Shown here piece by piece: positions 31,036 through 45,394 of a stretch of DNA of 64,000 nt (positions are counted from its first letter, which is position 1; each line of letters begins with the position of its first letter). The position numbers and the translations under genes are program-made. Under the pieces are notes generated by a model that was given only the letters and a program-made list of their open reading frames with translations, made no database searches and had not been told where the DNA came from. The stretch comes from Nitrosomonas marina (lineage in GTDB: Bacteria; Pseudomonadota; Gammaproteobacteria; Burkholderiales; Nitrosomonadaceae): assembly GCF_900110145.1 (NCBI RefSeq), contig NZ_FOCP01000005.1:124001-188000 (forward strand). The letters run 5' to 3'.

Positions 31036-31497
31036 ATGAAACGCTTTACTATTTCACTGGACAACCAGCTATCAGCGCAGTTTGATGCGCTTATGCGGTC
31101 TAGAGGTTATACCAATCGTTCTGAAGCAGTGCGTGATATGATTCGGGAGCTTCTTGAAAACGAGCATCTTAAGAATGAAAATGAGGGTTACTGTATTGCT
31201 TCGCTCAGTTATATTTATAATCATCATGAAAGTGATCTCGCAAATCGAATCACGTCAGTACAACACAGTCATCATGATTTGACTTTATCCAGTTTGCATG
31301 TACATCTGGATCATTATAACTGTCTCGAAGTAGTCATTTTGCGGGGTACAATTCAAAACGTATCTGATTTTGCAAATCAGATAATTGCTACACGTGGTGT
31401 TCGGCATGGCAAGCTTTTCATGGTTCCAATTGAAATCAAGCAGGAACATCATTCTCACGAGCATTTGTCACATACACACAGTAATCCGCTGGTCTAG
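31036..31497 (+). CDS. nikR: Nickel-responsive regulator NikR
   Basis: 153-residue ribbon-helix-helix repressor with an ACT-like nickel-binding domain. The DNA-binding part is MKRFTISLDNQLSAQFDALM with RGYTNRSEAVRDMIRE. The nickel ligands of E. coli NikR are all recognisable: His in VQHSHHDL, two His in LHVHLDHY and the Cys in YNCLEVV. A His-rich tail EHHSHEHLSHTH extends past the core. I use the ATG at 31036; a TTG at 31021 is in frame. Placement next to the urea island suggests it adjusts nickel uptake, urease or both. Confidence 0.93.
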   Translation: MKRFTISLDNQLSAQFDALMRSRGYTNRSEAVRDMIRELLENEHLKNENEGYCIASLSYIYNHHESDLANRITSVQHSHHDLTLSSLHVHLDHYNCLEVVILRGTIQNVSDFANQIIATRGVRHGKLFMVPIEIKQEHHSHEHLSHTHSNPLV

Positions 31498-31665: not shown

Positions 31666-32430
31666 CTAAGCGATCAATTCAACGTTGCCTGTATTTAAAT
31701 GATAGACGCCGCCGACGATCTTAAGTTTTTTATTGTCAACCAGCTGACTAAGAATCGGTGGCTGTTTTCTTAATTCTTCAACATTTAAAATTACGTTCTT
31801 TTTAACAATATCGAAATAACGGTTGTTGCCAACATAGTCCGGGGTCTTGCGTACAGCTCGGACTGCAGGGGTTAGTGCTGTAGCTATTGACTGTATGTGT
31901 CCTGGAAACTGCTCGTAGTTATCTGTCGCATCAATAGCCGCCTTGATCGCGCCGCAACTTTCATGGCCCAAAACCATGATCAATGGAACATGCAAAATAG
32001 CGGCAGCATACTCCAGCGTTGCAATAAAATCTGTCGTGATGTAATTGCCGGCAACACGTGCAACAAACAGATCTCCACGTTGTTCATCGAAACAGAATTC
32101 CGGACTCACCCGTGAATCCGAGCAACTCAGAATACAAGCAAAGGGATTTTGTCCTCTGACCAAATCCAAGCGTTCGTCTTTGAAATTTAATGGGGTCGAG
32201 TTATTCGTTACATATCGCTCATTTCCTTTCATCAGCCGTTCAAGTGCTGCTTCGGCGTTTAATACATTCTCTGGAATGGGTGGCATTTTAACCATACCAG
32301 ACATTGCATTTACTGTGCTCGATAGTGGTAGGCCCATGCCTAGCATGGATGCCGTAGTCATTTTAAGCAACAAACGCCTTTGTTGCGCTTCTTGCTTTAA
32401 CTCGATATTCGAAAAAATTTTTTTATTCAT
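31666..32430 (-). CDS. Beta-class carbonic anhydrase with Tat-like signal
   Basis: 254-residue zinc enzyme interconverting CO2 and bicarbonate. Zinc ligands and the catalytic dyad are in LSCSDSRVSPE (Cys-x-Asp-x-Arg) and GHESCGAIKA (His-x2-Cys). The N-terminus has QRRLLLK followed by a hydrophobic stretch ending near STVNAMSG, a near match to the twin-arginine signal, so export to the periplasm is likely. The start at 32430 gives MNKKIFSNIE; a longer frame to 32490 would overlap the urea transporter gene. It is 22 bases after that gene, which links it to the inorganic carbon released by urease. Confidence 0.88.
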   Translation of the reverse strand: MNKKIFSNIELKQEAQQRRLLLKMTTASMLGMGLPLSSTVNAMSGMVKMPPIPENVLNAEAALERLMKGNERYVTNNSTPLNFKDERLDLVRGQNPFACILSCSDSRVSPEFCFDEQRGDLFVARVAGNYITTDFIATLEYAAAILHVPLIMVLGHESCGAIKAAIDATDNYEQFPGHIQSIATALTPAVRAVRKTPDYVGNNRYFDIVKKNVILNVEELRKQPPILSQLVDNKKLKIVGGVYHLNTGNVELIA

Positions 32431-32452: not shown

Positions 32453-33436
32453 TTATTCTGATGACCAGTGTTTTGATACAGAAGCAGCAAACAGAAACAT
32501 CCACATTGTCAAAACAAATGGAAATGTCAGCGTGGGTAAACCAATCGGTGTCAGGAAATTAGCCAGACCAGCCTGGCAAACGACTGTTAAAATACCTGCA
32601 ATCAATGCCAAAAAAGCTGTTCCGACAGATGGTTTGAGAAAAACCCAGCCGATTGCCATCATGGTCAGTACAGGGTTAAACGCATATAGTCCCATTTCTA
32701 TCAGATTTTGACTGGCACCAAGTAATACGGGAACCAGTACACCAACAAATGTTCCGCATAGTGCCATAAAAGCACCCCGCAAAGAAGTAATGGCGATACC
32801 GATCAAAAACAGAATTCCGACAAGAACATTATCAGCGAACATGACTTCCGCAATACCTTTTGTTAAGGCGACATACCACAGTTCGGCTGTTTCATCTGTC
32901 ATGGCAGAAACCCAGGCTGCTACTGGAAGGTCTGCACTTACCAGCGTTTCGGGTATACCTGGTGGTGGCAGAACGGGGCCGTGTGAGAGGTTGTCGAATG
33001 AATAAACTGCAACCATGAACATCCAGCATGTTAGAACGAAAGGTGAGGTCGATGCAGGTATCTTGTAAGGTGTCAAAATTCGAATCAAAGCCGCAAGAAC
33101 TACGCTCGATAATATGGCAGCAAATACGACGTATACCCAAAGCAAAGGCGTATTTTCAAGAAAAAGAAAGAGGCAGGGTCCAACCAGGGTGCCGTTAAAA
33201 CCGTAAAGACCGGCATCGATATCATCTTCTGAAAAGCCGAGCAGATAAGCAGTAATAGTACTGGTTACAACGCCAACTGTGGCCGCTAGCCCGGCAGTTA
33301 TACCACCGATATATAGCGCCACTAAAAAAACCAGTCCTGTAACAGCGTTACCGCAAAAAAATACCTGACCCACACCACGAAAAATGACCCGAATCGGACG
33401 CGGCAAAGCCATGTCAAGTTTCACTGCCCATTGCAT
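32453..33436 (-). CDS. Urea transporter (UT family)
   Basis: 327-residue inner-membrane urea channel. It has about ten hydrophobic segments and the internal duplication of the UT family: GFSEDDIDAGLYGFNGTLVG in the first half and NLIEMGLYAFNPVLTMMAIG in the second, each with the Leu-x3-Phe/Asn pore pattern. GGAG precedes the ATG by 8 bases. It lies downstream of ureG beyond a terminator-like hairpin and upstream of the carbonic anhydrase gene. It would carry urea to cytoplasmic urease. Confidence 0.92.
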   Translation of the reverse strand: MQWAVKLDMALPRPIRVIFRGVGQVFFCGNAVTGLVFLVALYIGGITAGLAATVGVVTSTITAYLLGFSEDDIDAGLYGFNGTLVGPCLFLFLENTPLLWVYVVFAAILSSVVLAALIRILTPYKIPASTSPFVLTCWMFMVAVYSFDNLSHGPVLPPPGIPETLVSADLPVAAWVSAMTDETAELWYVALTKGIAEVMFADNVLVGILFLIGIAITSLRGAFMALCGTFVGVLVPVLLGASQNLIEMGLYAFNPVLTMMAIGWVFLKPSVGTAFLALIAGILTVVCQAGLANFLTPIGLPTLTFPFVLTMWMFLFAASVSKHWSSE

Positions 33437-33536: not shown

Positions 33537-33563
33537 AAAAATGCATTCAATTAATGCATTTTT
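33537..33563 (-). terminator. Hairpin terminator at the end of ureG
   Basis: A perfect 11-base inverted repeat AAAAATGCATT/AATGCATTTTT with a 5-base loop. On the minus strand it ends in TTTTTG and overlaps the ureG stop codon at 33551-33553. It may separate ureFG from the urea transporter and carbonic anhydrase genes. The stem is AT-rich, so termination may be partial. Confidence 0.6.
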
Positions 33564-34180
33564 ACTTCTTCAAGCAGACCTTGTTTGACAATAAAGTCAA
33601 TTATTTCTTGTATGCCCTGGCCAGTACGCATATTGGTAAACACAAATGGCCGGTCTCCGCGCATACGTTTGGCATCACGGGCCATCACGTCAAGATCTGC
33701 ACCGACATACGGCGCCAGATCGATTTTATTGATAACCAGCAAAGCAGAACGCGTGATGCCTGGGCCACCTTTTCTGGGGATTTTTTCACCAGCGGCTACA
33801 TCGATAACGTAAATAGTCAGATCGGACAATTCGGGACTGAATGTAGAGGCCAGATTGTCACCGCCGGATTCAACCAGTACTAGATCCAGATTGGGAAATT
33901 CATGCGTGATACGAGAGATAGCCTCGAGATTTATCGAAGCGTCTTCTCTGATAGCGGTATGGGGACAACCGCCGGTTTCAACCCCGATCAAACGTTCTGC
34001 AGGCAGTGCTTCTGCGCGCAATAAAATTTCAAGATCTTCTTTAGTGTAAATATCATTGGTAATGACAGCCATTTCGTAATGGTCACGCATTTTTTTGCTT
34101 AATATTTCGCATAGCGCTGTTTTGCCGGATCCGACTGGACCACCTATGCCAACACGGAGAGGGTTAGATTTGTGTGCCAT
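33551..34180 (-). CDS. ureG: Urease accessory GTPase UreG
   Basis: 209-residue SIMIBI-class GTPase that hands nickel to the urease active site with UreD, UreF and UreE. P-loop [13 protein letters not shown], the metal-binding [13 protein letters not shown] (Cys-Pro-His), and [14 protein letters not shown] for guanine recognition are present. The start at 34180 (MAHKSNPLR) is preferred over one six codons upstream. It follows ureF by 27 bases. Confidence 0.96.
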
Positions 34181-34207
34181 GATATATATGTATTCCAAGT
34201 TATTGTT

Positions 34208-34897
34208 TTAAGATCGATAAATACGGCTATATTGTATTTCATGCATCATTGACAGAATGGATAAACCGGGTGCCCAATTGGAAAGTTCGTGATCTTCGAG
34301 CTGCATTGCGTGGTTAGCTGCCATTTCGATTTTTGGATGTAGCGAGAGCAATAAGCGCTGGCCTGAAACTTGTCCAAGCGGTATGGATTTAACACATACA
34401 AGCACCTGATTTTCAATTATTGAAAATAAAAAACCAAGCAGCGCAGCCTCTTGTGATATTTTCAATGCAGTAGCTGCGCAGGCAAATGCGGTTGGTAGTG
34501 GAACCTCTACCTGAAGCGCCATAATTCTCTGCAGCGGTTCTTCAGCGATATTCAAGTCATAAACCAATTTACTCAAGGAGTAGCCCATCTGAATGGTTTC
34601 AGCTCGCAATTCATGAGTATCGCGTGAAGCAAGAAATAACTCAGTCCAATATGTAACATCCGGTTCATTCTGATTTGAAAATGCATGTAGCAGACGCCAG
34701 AAAATGGGTGCTTCAAAATCAGTGACTACGGATAGGGATTCTGTAATCCAGGCATTCGCAGAATTTTCATCCGTTACGCTGCCTGTTTCTATTGCCGCTT
34801 CCAGCCCTTGTGAGTAGGTGTAGGCCCCGATCGGTAACGTTGGGCTTGCCAGATGTAGCAACCGCAACAATTCTGTAGGGTGTTTTTCACTGATCAT
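34208..34897 (-). CDS. ureF: Urease accessory protein UreF
   Basis: 229-residue helical chaperone that bridges UreD and UreG in the nickel-loading complex. It has the usual SPTLPIGAYTYSQGLEAAIE near the N-terminus and SIPLGQVSGQRLLLSLHPKI later. It is separated from ureC by 259 bases where ureE is normally found. Confidence 0.93.
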   Translation of the reverse strand: MISEKHPTELLRLLHLASPTLPIGAYTYSQGLEAAIETGSVTDENSANAWITESLSVVTDFEAPIFWRLLHAFSNQNEPDVTYWTELFLASRDTHELRAETIQMGYSLSKLVYDLNIAEEPLQRIMALQVEVPLPTAFACAATALKISQEAALLGFLFSIIENQVLVCVKSIPLGQVSGQRLLLSLHPKIEMAANHAMQLEDHELSNWAPGLSILSMMHEIQYSRIYRS

Positions 34898-35156
34898 TTT
34901 TTTAAAATGCCGTAGAGTGTTCAGTAGATTATCAAATATTGTTTGCTGATGCTGAAAATGATCTTTTACTGTTCGATCAAAAATGCCTCGTGCAGCTACT
35001 TGTAATTAATTATGGCGATCATGAAAAAACTCAGCATTTGTTTTTCAGTTTGTTCTTAGTAAACTTTTGATACGATTAAAAGCGTCGGTTCAAATCTGGT
35101 ATAAGTAAAAGAAAGATTAACAATCTTTCTTTTACTTTATACATCAAGAAACTTTC
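34898..35156 (-). other. ureC-ureF gap lacking ureE
   Basis: In many urease operons ureE lies between ureC and ureF. Here the 259 bases are AT-rich and non-coding; I found no recognisable UreE fragment. A long hairpin lies at the ureC-proximal end. Confidence 0.6.
35105..35135 (-). terminator. Perfect 14-base inverted repeat after ureC
   Basis: GTAAAAGAAAGATT and its exact complement flank a 3-base loop (arms 35105-35118 and 35122-35135), 21 bases past the ureC stop. The stem is AT-rich and the T-run is interrupted, so it may act as an attenuator or a 3' stabilising hairpin for ureDABC mRNA more than as a strong terminator. Confidence 0.5.
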
Positions 35157-36863
35157 TCAGAATAAAAAGTAGCGCTGTGCCAGCGGAAGTGTATTTGCGG
35201 GCTCACATGTCAGCAGCTCACCATCGGCCCGGACTTCATAGGTTTCAGGATTGATTTCCATTTTTGGTGTGGCACTGTTATGAACCATATCCTTTTTGCG
35301 CAATCCTCGTGTATTTTTTACAGCAATTAATGGCTTGTCAGTTTTAAGATGATCTTCAAGGCCGGCATGCAAAGAAGCCTCTGACACAAAGGTATAGCAC
35401 GTGTTTCTGAGCGCGGTACCATACGCGCCAAACATATACCGATAATGAACGGGTTGTGGTGTAGGGATCGACGCATTCGGATCTCCCATCAGTGCAGCCG
35501 CAATCATGCCGCCTTTAAGAACCATTGACGGTTTTGCACCAAAATGTGCTGGCCTCCACAGTACCAGATCAGCATATTTGCCGACCTCTATTGAACCTAC
35601 CGCATGCGAAATACCATGACATATGGCTGGATTGATAGTGTATTTTGCAATATAGCGCTTGACTCTAAAATTATCATTTCTTGCTGAATCTTCTTTGAGT
35701 GCGCCACGCTGAACTTTCATTTTATGCGCGGTTTGCCATGTTCTGGTCACAACCTCACCAATACGACCCATTGCCTGCGAGTCTGATGCCATCATGGAAA
35801 TGGCGCCTATATCGTGCAAAATATCCTCAGCGGCAATGGTTTCCTTGCGAATCCTGGATTCAGCGAAAGCAACGTCCTCCGGTATGGCAGGACTCAAATG
35901 GTGGCAAACCATCAGCATATCCAGATGTTCGTCGAGAGTATTACGCGTGTAAGGGCGGGTCGGATTGGTTGAAGAAGGTAATACGTTTTCCAGTTCAACA
36001 ACCTTCATGATATCCGGTGCGTGACCGCCACCAGCACCTTCGGTATGAAACGTATGTATCGTTCTGTTTTTCATCGCCTTGATTGTATTTTCCAGATAGC
36101 CGCCTTCGTTGATCGTATCGGTATGAATTGCAACTTGAACGTCCATCTTATCGGCAACTGTCAAACAGTTATCGATCGCACCAAATGTCGTGCCCCAGTC
36201 TTCATGTAGTTTCAGACCGCAGGCGCCAGCCAGAACTTGTTCTTCGTTAGGTGTTGGCAAGCTGACATTGCCCTTGCCAAAAAAGCCGGTGTTCATGACC
36301 ATGCCGTCTGAAGCGCGCAGCATTGACTGAATATGCCATGGTCCCGGCGTACAGGTTGTCGCCAGTGTTCCGACCGCAGGGCCGGTGCCGCCGCCCAGCA
36401 TTGTGGTTATACCGTTCATCATGGCGTCTTCTTCCTGCTGAGGACAGATAAAGTGTATGTGTACGTCCAAAGCACCTGCAGTCAGAATTTGTCCCTCGCC
36501 GGCAATAATTTCTGTAGCAGCACCGATAGCCATTGAAACGCCAGGTTGGATGTCGGGGTTGCCAGCCTTGCCGATAGCGGCAATTCTGCCGTTCTTAAGT
36601 CCTACATCCGCTTTTACAATTCCCCAGTGATCGATAATTACTGCGTTGGTAATTACCGTATCCATAACGTCTGCATGATTGCGCTGAGACTGCCCCATAC
36701 CATCACGAATGACCTTGCCCCCACCAAATTTAACTTCCTCGCCATAAATGGTGTAGTCGTTTTCAATTTCTATAAACAGTTCGGTGTCTGCCAGACGAAC
36801 CCTGTCTCCAGTCGTTGGTCCCATCATTTCGGCATATGCCTGGCGCGAAATTTTAAAGCTCAT
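35157..36863 (-). CDS. ureC: Urease alpha subunit UreC
   Basis: 568-residue catalytic subunit hydrolysing urea to ammonia and carbamate at a dinickel site. Visible ligands are DVHIHF (two His), the carbamylated Lys in [36 protein letters not shown], the active-site flap LMVCHHLS with catalytic His, and [11 protein letters not shown] with the last Asp. The start at 36863 ([15 protein letters not shown]) matches the family and has GGGAG 8 bases upstream. An in-frame ATG at 36956, inside ureB and with its own GGGAG, would add 31 basic residues. Confidence 0.97.
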
Positions 36864-36918
36864 GTTTTCTGCTCCCTTTGATTGTTTGTCCTGTGATTGC
36901 TGTTTATCGCTGGTACGC

Positions 36919-37227
36919 TTAAACAAGCGAGCCCATAACTTTTTGGTTAAATCCATAAATTATTCTGCTCCCTGCAAGATCAACGAGCTCAACTGTGCGT
37001 TCCTGCCCCGGTTCAAAACGAATCGCGGTGCCAGCCATAATATTCAATCGCATTCCATAGGCTTCTTGCCGATCAAAGTCAAGAGCGGAGTTTGCTTCAT
37101 AGAAGTGAAAATGCGAACCAACCTGTATAGGTCTGTCGCCAGTATTTTTAACTTTAATTGTGTTCGTTTTTCGGCCGGCATTTAATTCTATTTCGCCTGA
37201 TTCAACGATGGTTTCTCCAGGAATCAT
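36919..37227 (-). CDS. ureB: Urease beta subunit UreB
   Basis: 102-residue structural subunit. [19 protein letters not shown] starts the protein and [18 protein letters not shown] is the family core. The ATG at 37227 lies 9 bases after AAGGAG. It is separate from UreA, as in most bacteria; the fused UreAB of Helicobacter is not seen. Confidence 0.95.
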
Positions 37228-37252: not shown

Positions 37253-37555
37253 TTAAGATATGGGATTATGAACGGTCACCAGTTTAGTGCCATCCGGAAA
37301 GGTTGCTTCAACCTGAATGTCGTGAATCATTTCAGGAACACCTTCCATAACGTCAGCCCGCGTTAACACGCGTGCACCCTCGGACATGAGTTCGGCCACC
37401 GTGCGACCGTCGCGCGCACCTTCCAGAACCGCGCAAGTAATCAGAGCGACTGCTTCGGGATAATTCAGCTTTACACCGCGCGCTTTGCGTCTTTCAGCGA
37501 GCAAACCGGCAGTGAAGATTTGAAGTTTATCTTTTTCTCTTGGGGTCAGATCCAT
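37253..37555 (-). CDS. ureA: Urease gamma subunit UreA
   Basis: 100-residue structural subunit with [20 protein letters not shown] and the [20 protein letters not shown] core. An ideal AAGGAGGT ribosome-binding site precedes the ATG. ureB begins 25 bases after its stop. Confidence 0.96.
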
Positions 37556-37618: not shown

Positions 37619-38599
37619 TCATGTATTCCACATGCGGGGTACTTCAGCTGTGCGTCCAAGTAGTGTCGGACGCAAAACGTCCCAGAGTTTTAACATAACA
37701 GCACGTGCAACTTCACTTGAATCACCTAGATAGCGCGCTACGATTATAGATTTTACCTGCGATACGCCGAGCATCCCGGTGCCTTGTGCAACACAGGCAG
37801 CCTGTTCGCGCAGTGCACTGATCAAATCGCTGGAATGAATTGAATCGCTCGCGGCAATTAGTGTTGCACAAACGGTTTTATTTGCCAGAACAAGCTGGCT
37901 GCGCATGTCTTTATCACCGCCACGCAAGTTGAGTTGCTCATACCAGATTAATTTTCTGTCGCGGTGTATTTTTACTCTCTGTCTGATTTGTCCTGTGTTG
38001 AATGATTCACCAAAAGCTGTACGGCCCAGGCAAAAAATTTCGCATCCGATATAGGTGGAATCCTTTTCCAGATTGATATTTTGAACAAGTTCTACTTGTG
38101 CATCGTCAAAGAAGATTGTTTCCTGTGGCAACCATTCCATTGTGCCGCCGGTTTTAACGTCAAGCGTTACAGTCTGAAACGATGTCCGGCCATTGGATCG
38201 ATACCATTTTGCTGCACCCGGCGTTGTTATTTGTACGCTGGAATCTGTGCCGACATGGCCGGCTATTTCCAATCTGTCTCCTCCGACTACCCCTCCAGGT
38301 GGATGAACCAGCACGATATGGCATACTTCCGGGCCTTCCGGGTAGAATGGCTTTTGTACATACAGTTGTCCAAAATGTGTACGTGATGCCAGGCGGCATT
38401 TTCCTGCAACTTTATCAAACGTCAGAGAAATACTTGCATCCGGTTTGGTATCGGAGTGCGATATTGTCGATTTATCATGCGTCTGGTCAGGTGCTCTCGT
38501 TTCATTGTGCGCTGACTGATTGCTGTTGCTTGTATTGTTCACCGATAATATTGGTACATCAGATTCTGTAATTTTTTTTAAATTTGAATAAATGGACAT
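37619..38599 (-). CDS. ureD: Urease accessory protein UreD
   Basis: 326-residue scaffold that binds apo-urease and recruits UreF and UreG. Conserved blocks are VHPPGGVVGGDRLEI, TTPGAAKWYRS, EWLPQETIFFDDA and the C-terminal LWDVLRPTLLGR. About 55 N-terminal residues rich in Ser, Asn and Thr precede the conserved core and are unusual; a later start is possible, but none has a better codon context. It is the first urease gene, 147 bases after the porin stop. Confidence 0.92.
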   Translation of the reverse strand: MSIYSNLKKITESDVPILSVNNTSNSNQSAHNETRAPDQTHDKSTISHSDTKPDASISLTFDKVAGKCRLASRTHFGQLYVQKPFYPEGPEVCHIVLVHPPGGVVGGDRLEIAGHVGTDSSVQITTPGAAKWYRSNGRTSFQTVTLDVKTGGTMEWLPQETIFFDDAQVELVQNINLEKDSTYIGCEIFCLGRTAFGESFNTGQIRQRVKIHRDRKLIWYEQLNLRGGDKDMRSQLVLANKTVCATLIAASDSIHSSDLISALREQAACVAQGTGMLGVSQVKSIIVARYLGDSSEVARAVMLKLWDVLRPTLLGRTAEVPRMWNT

Positions 38600-38746: not shown

Positions 38747-40222
38747 CTAGATCTGTATCTGAAACGACAATTTAAATACATTGACTTTCTCTCCAAACGC
38801 ATCAGGCGCATAGTTCAAGCCTTTTGTAAACAGGTCACCGTATTGATAGTATGCTGAAATACGTGCATTAAAACCATCAATGATATAGTTTATACCACCC
38901 TCAACTTCTTCCCGGTTGCTGCTGTTATCCGGCTGAACGCTGGTATATCTTCCGTATGGCTGGAATTGACCAATTCCAATTTTGGTGGGAAACAAATACA
39001 GTCCTGTTACTGTCCAGGATTGTCCGTCAAAAATACAAAAGCAATCAGGGTCGGCAAACGCCCTGCTGTCGTAATCCGCATAGAAATGTTTGTATTCGCC
39101 GTTAACAGTGAATACGCCCAGATTCTGCGGCATAACTTTTTCAAACAATACATCGGTGACCAAACCCAGAAAATCGCTGCGGCTTGCAAAAGATCCCGCA
39201 CCATTTTTTTGATAAGCGAATCCAAATGCAACAGCGAGTATATCGCCGGCAGTTCCGTAATAAGTGCTGCTGGTGTAGTAACCCGGGTTATTCTCGGGAT
39301 TTAAAAAATTGTAGGTAACACGGCCGGCCCACTTAACATCATCGGTCTGATTGGGTCCCATGTCGTTTTTTGATGATAGGCCCCTGAAAACACCGCCAGC
39401 ATAACTTAATGTACCTGGAATTAAACCGGGTTCAAAGCTTCCCCAGAAAGTTCCACCGTCATCACGTCCGTAGCGACCCGCACCGCCAGCGCCAAAATGG
39501 GTGCTGAAGTCACTTGGAAAGAAAGGGGTTTTGAACGGATCGTGTGTGGCCTGAAAGTAAGGACCGCTCAATTCTCCACGTTCTGTCGGGACGAGCATGC
39601 GGCCACCCCAGATATTGAAATAGCGGTTATATTCGAATTTGCCGACCGCATCCAGCACAGTGAAAAGTATTTTTGGATTATCGCCTTTATCGGTGTTATT
39701 ACACCAGAAACATTCGGTATTAAATTCAAATTTAATAAAGCGGTGAATCTGACCATTTACATAGATACGGGCATTATCATTGCTGTAGCGGTCCCGGTAA
39801 TTATTCTGCTCATTTTGCGCCCACACACCTGATCCTCGATAACCGGCGCCAATAGTTAACCATCGATAATCATCATATTCCATTCGAAATTTGAATTTAT
39901 CAAATCCGACTTTCACATCACCTATTTTGGCGTGATTGGCTTGAAAATTATTGCCTCGAAGCCACCAATCCTGTTCTTCTCTATTTCCAACACCGCCTGT
40001 TTCATCATGATCCGGATTAGCTTCGAATCCGTTGTCGTCGAAAAAGTCTGCATGAGCGTTCGTGAAAAAGACTGTGCCTGACAGTGTCATGATTATTGCA
40101 AAAACCATGCATCTCAGAATTTTCCTTGTTTTATCAGTTAAATGCGTATATTGCAGCGTACTTTCCGATTTGTTCCAGTGTATGCTGAACTTGCTAGGCA
40201 TACCGATGAAAAATAACTTCAT
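38747..40222 (-). CDS. Outer-membrane porin, possible urea/amide or anion porin
   Basis: 491-residue predicted beta-barrel. A long basic N-region leads to a hydrophobic segment and a likely signal-peptidase site after TNAHA. The mature part is rich in Tyr, Phe, Gly, Asn and Asp, with many alternating amphipathic strands (FKFRMEYDDYRWLTIGAGYRG) and an FNTECFWCNN pair of cysteines. It ends in VFKLSFQIQI, a barrel-like closing strand. It resembles phosphate-selective or short-chain-amide porins in general pattern; the assignment is by eye. GGGAG 8 bases before the ATG at 40222 supports this start. Its place ahead of ureDABC suggests a route for urea across the outer membrane. Confidence 0.6.
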   Translation of the reverse strand: MKLFFIGMPSKFSIHWNKSESTLQYTHLTDKTRKILRCMVFAIIMTLSGTVFFTNAHADFFDDNGFEANPDHDETGGVGNREEQDWWLRGNNFQANHAKIGDVKVGFDKFKFRMEYDDYRWLTIGAGYRGSGVWAQNEQNNYRDRYSNDNARIYVNGQIHRFIKFEFNTECFWCNNTDKGDNPKILFTVLDAVGKFEYNRYFNIWGGRMLVPTERGELSGPYFQATHDPFKTPFFPSDFSTHFGAGGAGRYGRDDGGTFWGSFEPGLIPGTLSYAGGVFRGLSSKNDMGPNQTDDVKWAGRVTYNFLNPENNPGYYTSSTYYGTAGDILAVAFGFAYQKNGAGSFASRSDFLGLVTDVLFEKVMPQNLGVFTVNGEYKHFYADYDSRAFADPDCFCIFDGQSWTVTGLYLFPTKIGIGQFQPYGRYTSVQPDNSSNREEVEGGINYIIDGFNARISAYYQYGDLFTKGLNYAPDAFGEKVNVFKLSFQIQI

Positions 40223-40891
40223 TCATGTGTCTCCCTCTTTTTGACGCTATATGATAGGCGGCATACAGTTAATATCAGACCAAAAACCAAATTCTGTATA
40301 CTTTTACGTATTGACTGTCTGGACTCGTTAACAATGTTTCAATTACCAGTCAGTTGTTCAGTTTTTTGTACTGTCACAAAATTGAATGTGAGTACGTATT
40401 ATTCCGGTTTCTTTCAAATTGTTAATACGAATTGCTCAATGCAATTAGATATTATGCTGGCTAATGATCATCTGACTATTAGGGAATGTTTTGTTTTAGA
40501 CTCGGGGAATGTTTTATTTTCTTATCAGGCAAAATTTTATTTTTATCTAAGAAAAACCATTAGATTTTTACGCTATAAATAGTCAAACATAGACAGGCAA
40601 ATTGGAATTTTTGCATACGGAATCTTTGGAAGATGTAAATTGAGGTTTTTTTCCGATTATCGGTAGTCAATAGAAAGTATTGACAGTTTTACACAAGTTG
40701 CAGTCTACTAGTAACAGGCCATAGCGCCTGTTCCGCTATACACGCGTGCTGCAGTGCCAGCGATCAAGTGCTGGCGAATTTCAGGCATCAGGAAAAAGTA
40801 TGAATTTTATATCGCTGTTGTCAGTTGACTGAAACAATGACAATTCTGATTAAGATCTGTATTTTTAATTTAATGAAGAGGCTTGCCAGAA
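40223..40891. promoter_or_regulatory. Divergent region between the porin and universal stress genes
   Basis: About 670 bases with no credible gene; frames here have poor, Cys/Phe-rich composition. Two GC-richer hairpins lie before the stress-protein gene: AACAGGC/GCCTGTT at 40713-40732 and GCCAGC/GCTGGC at 40756-40775. They could be leader structures of the plus-strand transcript. Both flanking genes need promoters here. Confidence 0.4.
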
Positions 40892-41341
40892 ATGGAATCA
40901 AAAAAACTATTGGTTACTACAGATTTCTCCGATGTGTCATTCGCTGCTCTGACCTATGCAGCAAAAATGCAGGGACACCAGATTACACTAATAAGTATTC
41001 TGCAAACCGGTGATGTGCCGCCCGATCTGTTGAAACAGATGCCGGACCCAGGCGCGATTCAGGATTATCGTAAAAAAGTATTGGAGCAAACAAGAGAAAA
41101 ACTTGAATCCGTTGCCCGCCAGTTTTTTAGCAATACAAACGTAACGACTGATGTTGTTGTTTGCGATGAGGATGTAGCGGCTGAAATATGTGCATATGCA
41201 GATGACAATGCTATCGATATGATCGTGATGACAGGACAGGGAAGAGGTGCGTTGGGCAGTTTGTTTGTCGGCAGTACTGTGCAAAAAGTCCTAAGAATGG
41301 CCAAAATACCGGTTCTGGTGATCCCAAAAACGGCAAAATGA
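40892..41341 (+). CDS. Universal stress protein, UspA family
   Basis: 149-residue single Usp domain, probably a cytoplasmic homodimer. The strand-one motif is KLLVTTDFSDVS. The C-terminal TGQGRGALGSLFVGSTVQKV carries the glycine-rich ATP-binding signature, followed by IPVLVIP. The ATG at 40892 fits best. ureE begins 113 bases downstream. Function beyond stress tolerance cannot be specified. Confidence 0.88.
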   Translation: MESKKLLVTTDFSDVSFAALTYAAKMQGHQITLISILQTGDVPPDLLKQMPDPGAIQDYRKKVLEQTREKLESVARQFFSNTNVTTDVVVCDEDVAAEICAYADDNAIDMIVMTGQGRGALGSLFVGSTVQKVLRMAKIPVLVIPKTAK

Positions 41342-41454
41342 GATAGTAGTGGATCAGGATTTGCTAGCTCACGGCATTTGTTTTGACGGTATAACGCTGG
41401 TTAATAATTGTAATAGCAATCGAATGATTGGGTAACAGTATCAAAGGAATATTA

Positions 41455-42003
41455 ATGCTTATTTTGAATAAAAAAGTGTCGCACGCTGATTCGATCTACG
41501 CACAGCTGGTTTTGCCATATGAGTTACGTGTAAACAGCCGTTTGCGAACCACGCTGGCTTCAGGCGAGGAACTAGCCATTTTTACGCAACGGGGTACAGT
41601 GCTGCATAATAACGACCTGCTTTGCAGCGATGATGGTAAGGTTGTTCAAATCATATCCGCCGAAGAACCCACGTACCGTATCACCTGTAATTCGGCTCAT
41701 GATCTTTTACGCTGCGCTTTTCATCTTGGTAATCGCCATACTGTTACCCAGGTGGGTGATGGTTTTTTGCGAATTCACCAGGATAGCGTACTAAAAGAAA
41801 TGCTGGAGGGGCTCGGTGCGGCGGTAGTAGAAGAGTCGGCGCAATTCGAACCAGAATCCGGTGCGTACAGTTCAGGAGGTCACCATCATCACGGGGAACA
41901 TGATCACAGCCACGGCGACAGCCATAGTCACAGTCATGCACATGGTCCGTTAGCTCCGATTCCGACGCGTCAGCGAATACATCGCGCCACCGAGAAAAAC
42001 TGA
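41455..42003 (+). CDS. ureE: Urease nickel chaperone UreE, displaced from the urease operon
   Basis: 182-residue nickel-binding metallochaperone delivering nickel to UreG. The N-terminal peptide-binding domain and the C-terminal metal-binding domain are present, with AFHLGNRHTVTQVGDGFLRI carrying the conserved His, then a His-rich tail (GGHHHHGEHDHSHGD and more). The start at 41455 has AGGA upstream. It is 3 kb from the urease genes, on the opposite strand, and is followed after 8 bases by a metal ABC transporter, so nickel or related-metal import is probably co-expressed with it. Confidence 0.93.
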   Translation: MLILNKKVSHADSIYAQLVLPYELRVNSRLRTTLASGEELAIFTQRGTVLHNNDLLCSDDGKVVQIISAEEPTYRITCNSAHDLLRCAFHLGNRHTVTQVGDGFLRIHQDSVLKEMLEGLGAAVVEESAQFEPESGAYSSGGHHHHGEHDHSHGDSHSHSHAHGPLAPIPTRQRIHRATEKN

Positions 42004-42011
42004 AAACCCAA

Positions 42012-42995
42012 ATGAATAAATTACTTCCATTTGCGAGCAGACAGGTTTGGTTATTTACAACGCTGCTGCTGGCTACAAATCTGGTCCATGCTGAAAATTC
42101 GGAAAAGATGCTGCGTATTGCAACAACCGTACCGCCAATAACGAATATTGTAGAAAATATCGGCGGTTCGCTGGTTACAGTTTCCGGTATCGTTCCCAAC
42201 GGGACGGATTCGCACACATTCGAACCTGTTCCGTCTGATGCCAAAACACTGGCCCACGCAGATATTATTTTTGTAAATGGAATGAGTCTCGAGGTACCGA
42301 CAATTAAACTGGCTGAAAAAGTAAAAAAATCCAATACACCGATTGTACGACTGGCGAACGAAACGTTGCCCGAGGAAGAATGGCAGTATGATTTCAGTTT
42401 TCCAAAAGAACAAGGTAATCCCAATCCACACTTGTGGCCGAACATTGCACTGACCATCCGATATGCGGAGATTGTCCGTGATAGGCTGGCTGAGCATGAT
42501 TCCCGGCATGCTGATTTGTATGCTGCAAATGCAACTGCTTATATAACCAAGTTGCAGCGACTTGATCAGGCTATATTTGCATGTATCGAAACCATTCCGG
42601 AAAGTAACCGCAAACTGATCACTTACCATGATTCATTTGCCTATTTTGCTCCCCGCTATGGAATGGAAGTTATCGCGGCAATACAACCGGCCAGCTTCAC
42701 GGAGCCGGGCCCTCGTGATATTGTGTATATCATCGAGCAGATCAAACGTGAAAAAATTCCGGCAATTTTCGGTTCCGAAGTTTTTCCCAGTAAAATTATG
42801 GAACAGATCGCCCGCGAATCGGGTGCAAGGTTTGTTGATGAACTATCGGATGACGAGCTGCCGGAAAAACCGAATCATTCATTTATTGGCATGATGGTCA
42901 ACAACATTGTAATAATGACTGAAGCGTTAGGCGGTGAATCAGCATGCGCCAGTCATATTGATGCCAGCAATTTGATTGATTCAGTTACGGGATGA
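42012..42995 (+). CDS. Metal ABC transporter substrate-binding protein (cluster A-I, Mn/Fe-type ligands)
   Basis: 327-residue periplasmic binding protein with a signal peptide ending near NLVHA. Likely metal ligands are His in GTDSHTFEP, His in GNPNPHLWPN, Glu in FGSEVFPSKI and Asp in RFVDELSDDE. This His-His-Glu-Asp set is that of manganese/iron binders such as PsaA and SitA. The zinc proteins (ZnuA) use a third His and a His-rich loop, which is absent here. The link to ureE raises the possibility of nickel. The true metal is open. Confidence 0.85.
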   Translation: MNKLLPFASRQVWLFTTLLLATNLVHAENSEKMLRIATTVPPITNIVENIGGSLVTVSGIVPNGTDSHTFEPVPSDAKTLAHADIIFVNGMSLEVPTIKLAEKVKKSNTPIVRLANETLPEEEWQYDFSFPKEQGNPNPHLWPNIALTIRYAEIVRDRLAEHDSRHADLYAANATAYITKLQRLDQAIFACIETIPESNRKLITYHDSFAYFAPRYGMEVIAAIQPASFTEPGPRDIVYIIEQIKREKIPAIFGSEVFPSKIMEQIARESGARFVDELSDDELPEKPNHSFIGMMVNNIVIMTEALGGESACASHIDASNLIDSVTG

Positions 42996-43777
42996 ATCCC
43001 GCCATACAGTTAATTGATGTTACAACCAGTTATGAAAATAATGTCGTTTTTACGCGCTTATCGCTTCAAATTGAGCCAGGCCGGTTTGTCGGCATAGTCG
43101 GCCCAACCGGTTGCGGAAAAACGACGCTGCTTAAAACGATACTGGGTGTGCAAACGGTATTCTGCGGTCAGGTACTCATGAACGGTCAACCGGTTGACCG
43201 CGTCCAAAGCAAAAAAATCGGCTATATACCCCAGCTGGAGAGTGTTGACTGGAATTTTCCAGTCACCGTTGAAGACGTTATTATGATGGGGCTTTATACC
43301 GGCCGGCGCTTCCTGCCCTGGCAGAGTAAAGAGGAGCGTGAACGAGTCGAGGATCTGGCTGGAAAACTGGGCATTTATAATTGCCTGCGACAGCATATTT
43401 CTCACACCTCCGGCGGACAGCGCCAGCGGGCGTTTCTGGCACGCGCCTTGATCAGTAACCCCAGTCTGTTAGTGCTTGATGAACCAACTTCTGGCGTGGA
43501 TATTAAGACGCAACACGAGGTTCTCCATCTGCTGGGCGATATCAACAGCCAGGGGATGACTGTAATACTCACAACGCACGATTTGAATGCTGTCGCCTCT
43601 CATTTGCCCTGGGTTATTTGTTTTAACAATGGTATCGTTGCTGAAGGTCGGCCGCGCGATATTTTTACCAACGATATTCTCACCAAAACCTATGGCAGCG
43701 ACATTATTATAATTGAACATGGGGATTATCAATTAATAGCCAATAGCACGCCATTAAAATTCAATTACGACCTATAG
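42992..43777 (+). CDS. Metal ABC transporter ATP-binding protein
   Basis: 261-residue ATPase. Walker A GPTGCGKTTLL, signature HTSGGQRQRAFLARAL (Thr in place of the usual Leu), Walker B LLVLDEPTSGVD and the H-loop ILTTHDLNAV are present. Its ATG overlaps the stop of the binding-protein gene by 4 bases, so the two are translationally coupled. Confidence 0.92.
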   Translation: MNPAIQLIDVTTSYENNVVFTRLSLQIEPGRFVGIVGPTGCGKTTLLKTILGVQTVFCGQVLMNGQPVDRVQSKKIGYIPQLESVDWNFPVTVEDVIMMGLYTGRRFLPWQSKEERERVEDLAGKLGIYNCLRQHISHTSGGQRQRAFLARALISNPSLLVLDEPTSGVDIKTQHEVLHLLGDINSQGMTVILTTHDLNAVASHLPWVICFNNGIVAEGRPRDIFTNDILTKTYGSDIIIIEHGDYQLIANSTPLKFNYDL

Positions 43778-43782
43778 CATCA

Positions 43783-44712
43783 ATGCAGTTTTTTTGGGAA
43801 CCGTTATCTTATGAATTTTTCCGACACGGGCTGATAGCTGCTGTTTTGGTTGGTGCTTTGTGCGGGCTGGTTGGAGTGCATGTTGTACTGAGAGGTATGA
43901 GTTATGTCGGCCACGGTTTGTCTCATGCCGCTTTTGGGGGTGCCGTGATTGGGTTCGTATTCAATTTCAATTTTTATATAGGCGCCGGGGCTATGGGCCT
44001 GTTTGCTGCATTAATGATTAATCAGTTGACAAAAAACAGAAAAATCAAATCAGATGCAGCTATCGGTATTGTCACAACCGCTGTTTTTGCGCTTGGAGTA
44101 GCGGTCATTAGCCAGCAGCGCAATTTAAACAAAAGTCTTGAGGCAGCATTGTTTGGTAACATTTTGGGTATAACAGACGGCGATTTGATAATTATCGGGC
44201 TGGTTGCGGCGGTGACACTATTCGTCATGTTTCTATCATACAGGCCGCTGCTTTTTGCTACGTTTGATGAGGAAGCTGCGCAGATTTTCGGTATCAGAAC
44301 AGGAGCGCTGCAACTACTTTTTGCGCTATTGCTCACCTTATCGGTCATTGTTGCCATGAATATCGTGGGTGTAACCATGATTGCAGCAGCATTGATTATG
44401 CCTGCAATGACAGCACGCATGCTGACGGACCGGTTCAGTATGATGCAGTTATATTCCGTTTTAATTGGTGTCACGATCGGCGCAGGTGGTATGTTTCTGA
44501 GCTATTTTTTTAATGTTGCTTCTGGTGCAACAATTGTCTTGTTCGGCGCGCTGATATTTTGTTTTTCCGTTCTGGCCAGGCATATTCGTGAAAAAATCCT
44601 CCTGCAGGCCAACTTTCATCGTCACGGAAATTTGATTCATTCACATCCGCTCGACCACGAGTCTCATAGCCACGATCATTCTGAATCTATCAATAAAGAA
44701 GATACGCGTTGA
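43783..44712 (+). CDS. Metal ABC transporter permease, His-rich C-terminus
   Basis: 309-residue ABC-3 family membrane protein with about eight or nine helices and the family pattern GLVGVHVVLRGMSYVGHGLS near the N-terminus. The cytoplasmic C-terminus FHRHGNLIHSHP then DHESHSHDHSES is rich in His and Asp, unlike typical ZnuB or SitC, and may hold imported metal. It follows the ATPase by 5 bases and ends the operon. Confidence 0.9.
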   Translation: MQFFWEPLSYEFFRHGLIAAVLVGALCGLVGVHVVLRGMSYVGHGLSHAAFGGAVIGFVFNFNFYIGAGAMGLFAALMINQLTKNRKIKSDAAIGIVTTAVFALGVAVISQQRNLNKSLEAALFGNILGITDGDLIIIGLVAAVTLFVMFLSYRPLLFATFDEEAAQIFGIRTGALQLLFALLLTLSVIVAMNIVGVTMIAAALIMPAMTARMLTDRFSMMQLYSVLIGVTIGAGGMFLSYFFNVASGATIVLFGALIFCFSVLARHIREKILLQANFHRHGNLIHSHPLDHESHSHDHSESINKEDTR

Positions 44713-44737
44713 AGCAGAAATCGGGTGATTAACGGAT

Positions 44738-45394
44738 CTATTGTTGTCCACTTACCCAGCGTGTGGCATAACGTATCAGATCGGTGCTGTCTTTAAGATT
44801 CAACTTGGTTCGAATATTAAAGCGGTGAGTTTCGATTGTTTTAACGCTGCGGCCAAGCAACTTGGCGATTTCCTGGCTGCTGTGCCCCTGACCAATTAAA
44901 TTCATTACCTCAAACTCACTTGGTGTCAGTGTATTGATCAACTGCTCAGCATCCGAGCGTTTGATGTTTATTTTATTTAATAGCCCGGCATACATTTTCT
45001 GGCTCAGAAAAATGTTGCCGTTGAGCACTTCTCGTATGGCGTTGATCAATACCTCGCCGGATTCCTGCTTCATCACATAGCCTCGAGCGCCCGCCTGCAA
45101 AGCCCTTTCTGCGTAGATCTCTTCATTATTCATGGAAACAAAAAGTACAGGTAACGCAGGGTATAGGGACTGAATGTCCTTGATTATTTCAAATCCTGAT
45201 ATGGTTTTGAACGTTACGGCAAGCAGCACGATATCCACCTGACAGCCTTGCTTTAAAAAATTTATTGCTTCGCAACCGTCTTTGGCTTCAGCACAAACTT
45301 CCATATCAGGCTCAAGATTGACAAGTATGGCGATGCTTTGCCGCATCATGGCATGACCATCCACCAGCATAACTTGTGCTTTTGAAGTTGGCAT
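44738..45394 (-). CDS. NarL-type response regulator with degenerate receiver
   Basis: 218-residue paralogue of the gene at 45671-46339. The LuxR-type DNA-binding domain is intact (LTPSEFEVMNLIGQGHSSQ, SVKTIETHRFNIRTKLNL). In the receiver the phospho-acceptor position reads DIVLLAVTF, Ala in place of Asp, and the acidic pair reads LVDGH in place of LVDDH. The conserved Lys in YVMKQES and Ser in VLFVSMN remain. Phosphorylation in the usual way is therefore not expected. The start at 45394 aligns with the paralogue; an ATG at 45403 is three codons earlier. Confidence 0.88.
   Translation of the reverse strand: MPTSKAQVMLVDGHAMMRQSIAILVNLEPDMEVCAEAKDGCEAINFLKQGCQVDIVLLAVTFKTISGFEIIKDIQSLYPALPVLFVSMNNEEIYAERALQAGARGYVMKQESGEVLINAIREVLNGNIFLSQKMYAGLLNKINIKRSDAEQLINTLTPSEFEVMNLIGQGHSSQEIAKLLGRSVKTIETHRFNIRTKLNLKDSTDLIRYATRWVSGQQ

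Follow-up and report, generated by a model that had tools for sequence, protein, structure and literature searches.

A cluster A-I ABC importer adjoining ureE in Nitrosomonas marina is probably a nickel importer serving urease

We analyzed a stretch of 64,000 nucleotides from Nitrosomonas marina (contig NZ_FOCP01000005.1 of assembly GCF_900110145.1, positions 124,001 to 188,000, forward strand; hereafter the window), in which the gene of the nickel chaperone UreE is directly followed by three genes for an ATP-binding cassette (ABC) importer of the cluster A-I (ZnuA/TroA/PsaA-like) type. Very probably, nickel for urease is the physiological substrate of this importer, and a nickel branch within the cluster A-I importers is the best label for it. 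Gene order, co-occurrence with urease, NikR-type boxes in relatives, protein families and a predicted fold were directly observed. A preliminary description of the window had already suggested that the importer serves urease. This suggestion is supported by the co-occurrence of the two, also in independent contrasts, by linkage to the urease cluster, and by nikR, a TonB receptor gene and NikR-type operators upstream of the importer in related genomes.

The importer genes lie on the plus strand. They encode a PF01297 binding protein (42012-42995; predicted ligands H68, H140, H206 and D281; clade signature C191/C312), an ABC ATPase (42992-43777; PF00005), the gene start of which overlaps the binding-protein gene by 4 bases, and a PF00950 permease with a His-rich C-terminal tail (43783-44712), with which the importer genes end. 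All parts of a cluster A-I gene set are thus present as neighbors. The ureE gene (41455-42003, plus strand; NF009751, 161 bits against a cut-off of 144; PF05194) ends 8 bases before the binding-protein gene, and its product has the N- and C-terminal UreE domains and a His-rich tail. Open reading frames (ORFs) and Pfam matches confirm the order that had been described, and NCBIfam and Pfam profile searches of the region return the families UreE, PF01297, ABC_tran and PF00950. The urease operon on the minus strand indeed lacks ureE. It consists of ureD (37619-38599), ureA (37253-37555), ureB (36919-37227) and ureC (35157-36866; PF00449 match), identified as ORFs, and of ureF (34208-34897) and ureG (33551-34189), identified as ORFs and by tblastn synteny. 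The 259 bases between ureC and ureF (34898-35156, minus strand), where ureE lies in most relatives, had rightly been called non-coding, as they contain no ORF of 80 or more amino acids. Loci in which the importer directly follows ureE are called ureE-adjacent below.

Importer and urease were compared in a sample of 125 genomes from the window's family, presumably the ammonia oxidizers among the betaproteobacteria; of these, 117 were counted after exclusion of a small-genome genus (g2; 8 genomes, G001-G008). This genus has a distinct urease (with a ureB-C-A-F-G order in L387), a very divergent UreE in 6/8 genomes and a receptor match in 6/8. Domain counts over all 125 genomes were 78 for UreE_C, 74 for PF01297, 75 for urease alpha, 64 for NikR_C, 4 for NicO, 0 for CbiM, 48 for HupE and 119 for ZIP. 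Genomes with ureE or ureC were taken as urease-positive, and two PF01297 matches were dropped before counting. The match in G003 (23 bits) is below the cut-off and has internal stops. That in G031, a urease-free genome of the window's genus, is about 30% identical, has a different gene order and belongs to an unrelated cluster A-I system (L246:7548-8441; AztC profile, 267 bits against a cut-off of 350). Four genomes with importer and ureE but no ureC match (G019, G028, G047, G102) were counted as urease-bearing. The missing ureC is at least partly explained by broken contigs: in G028, G047 and G102, the loci or ureE contigs end near a gap or hold other ure genes, the exception being G019, with no other ure gene on its contig within the 15 kb read. 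Counted in this way, 72 genomes had both urease and importer, 45 had neither, and none was discordant.

The association also held on a tree. On an rpoB tree built with a "quick" method (108 genomes, including 103 from outside g2; G039 and G112 excluded because their rows were badly framed; 14 of the 117 genomes absent), urease and importer each needed 18 changes, and all 17 independent contrasts showed the importer going with urease (sign test, p = 1.5e-5). A first tree that included G039 and G112 gave the same result. With g2 included, 16.5 of 18 contrasts were concordant. The nikR gene went with urease in 12.9 of the 17 contrasts on average and never in the opposite direction. HupE, used as a comparison trait, gave 2.2 contrasts in the same direction, 5.6 in the opposite direction and 9.2 without difference, and showed no association with urease.

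According to tblastn synteny, the importer is close to the urease cluster in most cases. Importer and urease might therefore have been gained and lost together in a shared mobile cluster without any functional tie, although we regard this as very improbable. Clusters do seem to move, as judged from G042/G043, where the importer tree groups the importers with the ureE-adjacent set and the rpoB tree groups the genomes with G040; this conflict suggests transfer of the urease-importer cluster. However, seven urease-positive genomes hold the importer far from urease, either at least 84 kb away on the same contig (G050, G051, G061) or on a different contig at a coordinate distance of at least about 25 kb (G064, G066, G103, G112). 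The importer alone, without urease, was found in none of the 117 genomes, and NikR-type control is a separate line of evidence.

The window contains a gene for the nickel-responsive repressor NikR with a His-rich C-terminal tail (31036-31497, plus strand; ORF; NF002815, 191 bits against a cut-off of 83; PF08753 match at G000:C48:155195-155422), which the preliminary description did not mention. It lies at the far end of the cluster, beyond a carbonic anhydrase and a urea transporter gene. Across the family, nikR was found in 63 of the 72 importer-bearing genomes, as against 1 of the 45 importer-free ones. In 48 of the 56 loci that are not ureE-adjacent, nikR is found at most 5 kb, and a TonB receptor gene at most 3.5 kb, upstream of the importer. 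Of the 50 loci with the receptor gene in this position, 49 carry it on the opposite strand. Contig ends truncate several of the eight remaining loci; a true or partial difference is seen in G109, G110, G112 and G124.

A motif-free search for inverted repeats upstream of the importer was made in 71 promoters, which represent every importer-bearing family genome except the window's own. The repeat GTATGA-N15-TCATAC ranked first (31/71). Its half-sites are those of the Escherichia coli NikR operator, given as GTATGA-N16-TCATAC in one source (PMC7055735) and as a repeat of 27-28 bp in another (PMC545781). With a spacing of 15, 42 exact copies were found in 1.38 Mb, compared with 0 or 1 at each of the other spacings between 10 and 20. 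The exact copies lie before the importer in 36 cases, inside ureC in 5 and before ureD in one. Box-like sites inside ureC (these 5 and 16 more with one mismatch) were set aside as presumably conserved codons. With up to one mismatch allowed, the box was present in 43/71 importer promoters, against 0.0 in 20 Markov shuffles. All these promoters belong to the 55 loci that are not ureE-adjacent and have NikR (43/55); the box was found in 0/9 loci without NikR and in 0/7 ureE-adjacent loci with NikR. In three ureE-adjacent genomes (G009, G013, G074), a box with at most one mismatch lies before ureD instead. Elsewhere in the genome from which the window comes, an exact box (L372:3855-3881, G000:C37) precedes the first start codon of an unlinked TonB receptor ORF by 183 bases, which makes NikR control of nickel entry plausible in this species. 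In G019, the aligned part of the receptor is preceded by an exact box at a distance of about 310 bases.

The binding protein had been described as having manganese/iron-type ligands (His, His, Glu, Asp). This reading was not borne out. In profile alignments to MntA, YfeA, PsaA and MntC, the column with the Glu of MntA, YfeA and PsaA holds His206 of the window protein, so that the aligned site reads His-His-His-Asp. The Asp of MntA is matched by Asp281; in the alignment to YfeA, the gap is placed elsewhere. Residues H68, H140, H206, D280 and D281 are invariant in 62/62 family proteins. An AlphaFold 2 model of the binding protein (predicted local distance difference test 87.8, predicted template modeling score 0.85) has the cluster A-I fold, with matches to YfeA (Z 30.9, root-mean-square deviation 2.1, 269 residues aligned), TroA (Z 29.9) and AztC (Z 29.7), and with Z values of 26-31 to 50 listed A-I entries over residues 31-308. 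The fold is shared with the manganese/iron importers PsaABC, MntABC and YfeABCD, which also give the top PDB matches by sequence (YfeA, MntA, MntC) and by fold. Nevertheless, we consider a manganese or iron importer hardly credible, given that the diagnostic Glu is His in every family protein, that NikR-type boxes precede the importer in relatives, and that the importer co-occurs with urease; the manganese/iron reading of the ligands is ruled out by the alignment.

Two cysteines, C191 and C312, mark the clade. They are present in 62/62 family proteins and in all ten proteobacterial members outside the family (L356 ends before position 312), and are missing from 14 other, non-proteobacterial relatives. 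A His-rich permease tail, with 7-13 His among the final 45 residues, was seen in the nine proteobacterial members checked, compared to 0-3 His in six others; it was missing in the seven Nitrosomonas permeases from loci without ureE adjacency that were inspected. The N. marina record among the public relatives has a binding protein 91% identical to that of the window.

The public-genome scan returned 125 relatives, of which 80 were kept, and the spread of the clade seen in this way is a lower bound. Of the kept relatives, 24 that do not belong to the set of family genomes were examined for boxes (L369 was left out). The family binding proteins form one group in the binding-protein tree (support 95), with the proteobacterial relatives outside it (L356 was not in the tree), and the proteobacterial relatives with a box appear to lie outside the family. 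There are eight of these: L303 with an exact box, L302, L309, L317, L354, L356 and L364 with one mismatch, and L312 with two. For L302, L303, L309 and L312, the search covered 2,600 bases rather than 420, and their boxes turned up within about 230 bases of the gene. In two gammaproteobacterial metagenome-assembled genomes (L325, L347) and in 14 members from Chloroflexota, Rubrobacter and other groups, the best box had 3-5 mismatches. A nikR gene was seen in six of the eight boxed relatives (L302, L303, L312, L354, L356, L364); of the other two, both on short contigs, L309 showed a receptor only and L317 neither nikR nor receptor. L302 also has tonB, exbB and exbD according to Pfam, and L312 has ORFs of like appearance. 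No further clade member emerged from an order-level search of 399 genomes (E up to 1e-40), in which the best score outside the family was 191 bits versus 535-610.

No urease gene was detected in the fetched stretches of the eight boxed relatives. With nikR near the importer in six of them, this would fit a general nickel (or nickel/cobalt) importer for any nickel enzyme, with urease as its main client in the ammonia oxidizers. We regard this as a real possibility, if an unlikely one, and it is compatible with nickel supply to urease as the preferred explanation; against it, the importer tracks urease exactly in the 117 family genomes. Other candidates for a general nickel route were discarded: NicO and CbiM are nearly absent, and HupE, present in 25/72 importer-bearing and 23/45 importer-free genomes, does not track urease. 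HupE may import nickel in some genomes. We also observed a HupE/UreJ permease domain fused to a TonB-dependent receptor in a single frame of about 900 amino acids (Pfam, two examples; by coordinates in 11/125 genomes). Such fusions lie at L192:15769-18477, L195:15316-18030 and L216:17291-20000 (G041, G043, G078) and, in the window's own genome, at L373:4634-7357 (G000:C25). In the nikR-less urease clusters of G041, G042, G043 and G078, the fusion gene lies 3' of a carbonic anhydrase gene. The junction resembles a signal peptide, which would suggest a polyprotein that is processed into inner- and outer-membrane parts.

Comparison of the locus across the family, which had been proposed as a check, revealed that the arrangement in the window recurs. 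In 16/72 importer-bearing genomes, ureE is immediately followed by the importer, suggesting that the adjacency is not due to chance. In 49 fetched loci, ureE sits between ureC and ureF; the ten loci that have ureC, ureE and ureF in a different order are all ureE-adjacent, and the usual order holds in all other loci showing the three genes. In the 15 ureE-adjacent loci besides the window, the gap between ureE and the importer is 8-92 bases in 11 cases and 219-489 in four. A universal stress protein gene (usp; 40892-41341, plus strand; PF00582, synteny) lies directly 5' of ureE in the window and in 12 of these 15 loci. The binding-protein tree unites 15 of the 16 ureE-adjacent importers in one clade (Shimodaira-Hasegawa-like approximate likelihood ratio test, 97) and gives that of G013 no clear position, so one or two rearrangements are enough to explain the move of ureE. 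Promoter-like sites at 40200-44900 were uninformative (16, against 10.1 with a standard deviation of 3.7 in shuffles).

Several observations weigh against nickel as the substrate or urease as its destination. Genus g2 is urease-positive in 7/8 genomes and has the importer in 0/8. The co-occurrence is inflated, because urease and importer are often neighbors and a single deletion can remove both. Urease-free G012 retains the receptor (74% identical), and urease-free G123 retains nikR. Conversely, nikR is missing in 9/72 importer-bearing genomes, and 12/55 loci that have NikR and are not ureE-adjacent show no box with at most one mismatch. The box was found in 0/15 ureE-adjacent importers, although this absence counts as one or two events rather than fifteen because these importers form one clade. 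In the window itself, a search with spacings of 13-17 and up to three mismatches gave no box with spacing 15 and 0-2 mismatches among the matches listed. The best NCBIfam matches are to zinc (AztC) and manganese systems, none of which reaches its cut-off; for the AztABC equivalogs, the scores are 182.5 against 350 (AztC), 166.5 against 220 (AztA) and 189 against 280 (AztB). Finally, a site of three His and one Asp is usual for zinc.

By homology, zinc would be the main alternative substrate, with the importer in an ordinary ZnuABC/AztABC role and its proximity to urease incidental. The His-His-His-Asp site is what we take to be the ligand set by which TroA and AztC bind zinc, AztC is the closest NCBIfam profile, the window's binding protein is the only PF01297 protein of its genome (99.87% complete), and in two Chloroflexota relatives a Fur-family gene directly precedes the binding-protein gene (L360:9535-9963, L362:9409-9876). 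A zinc importer nevertheless appears very improbable to us. The 45 of 117 genomes that do without the importer are all without urease, and ZIP transporters are nearly universal (69/72 importer-bearing and 43/45 importer-free genomes); the NikR-type boxes and nikR neighbors would also be hard to reconcile with zinc. The window importer shares fold and gene set with AztABC, ZnuABC and TroABCD, but its clade differs from these zinc importers in NikR-type boxes, urease linkage and, in proteobacterial members, C191/C312 and the His-rich permease tail.

If nickel is the substrate, the metal (probably chelated) would cross the outer membrane through the TonB receptor, be captured by the binding protein at its three-His-one-Asp site, and be brought inside by the ATPase/permease pair, from where it would be handed to UreE/UreG for urease. 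In most of the family, NikR would turn off receptor and importer once nickel is sufficient. In the lineage of the window, ureE would have left the urease operon and come to lie directly before the importer genes (usp-ureE-importer), so that nickel import and the urease chaperone can be co-expressed. We infer the metal, the direction of transport, co-transcription, repression by NikR and nickel hand-over. We further propose, tentatively and at less than even odds, that the importer belongs to an unrecognized nickel-specific A-I branch, a NikR-controlled, envelope-spanning system of ammonia oxidizers and other Proteobacteria. It would comprise the TonB receptor, in some relatives with a TonB-ExbB-ExbD of its own, the C191/C312 binding protein and the His-tailed permease, with UreE coupled to it in the window lineage so that the permease tail hands imported nickel on to UreE.

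We found no paper in which a cluster A-I importer is assigned nickel, NikR or urease in a literature search for which most subscription journals and the 2006 survey of nickel/cobalt transporters were out of scope, so that an earlier mention is possible. Known nickel systems offer partial parallels. NikABCDE of E. coli is a nickel ABC importer under an operator with identical half-sites (PMC7055735); it belongs to the peptide/nickel ABC family (PMC2667541), and the window importer to cluster A-I. NiuBDE of Helicobacter pylori is a non-Nik ABC nickel importer that feeds urease, but its binding protein NiuB belongs to class III and does not track urease in its distribution across Helicobacter (PMC5140060). 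FrpB4 and FecA3 are outer-membrane TonB nickel receptors under NikR control in H. pylori (PMC11247825), to which we liken the receptor by role and control. Unlike FrpB4 and FecA3, it is paired with a cluster A-I importer.

We also note the remaining features of the cluster. A beta carbonic anhydrase gene (31666-32421, minus strand; PF00484) lies at its end, next to the gene of a urea transporter of the UT/yut type (32453-33436, minus strand; TIGR03441, 334 bits against 275). A porin-like protein is encoded at 38747-40222 (minus strand), with a weak match to the ExtI porin (45 bits against a cut-off of 150), no Pfam match, and support from synteny. Its gene is near ureD in 56/59 family loci that show ureD, and it is possibly a urea or nickel porin. 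A match to Rfam RF02514 (5' ureB small RNA; 102.6 bits) at 36425-36707 on the plus strand, opposite to ureC, probably reflects conserved urease codons and not an RNA.

Among the known importers searched, NicO (4/125) and CbiM (0/125) do not explain the nickel source of ureolytic ammonia oxidizers. A 2009 survey counted bacteria with nickel proteins but no recognized nickel transporter, given as "62 and 10" and read here as 62 (PMC2667541). If the importer carries nickel, a nickel branch among the zinc, manganese and iron importers would help to fill this gap, and routine annotation as a zinc or manganese transporter would need correction. Sister pairs with and without urease make the nickel reading directly testable, and if true, it would give a handle on the nickel limitation of urea-fed nitrification.

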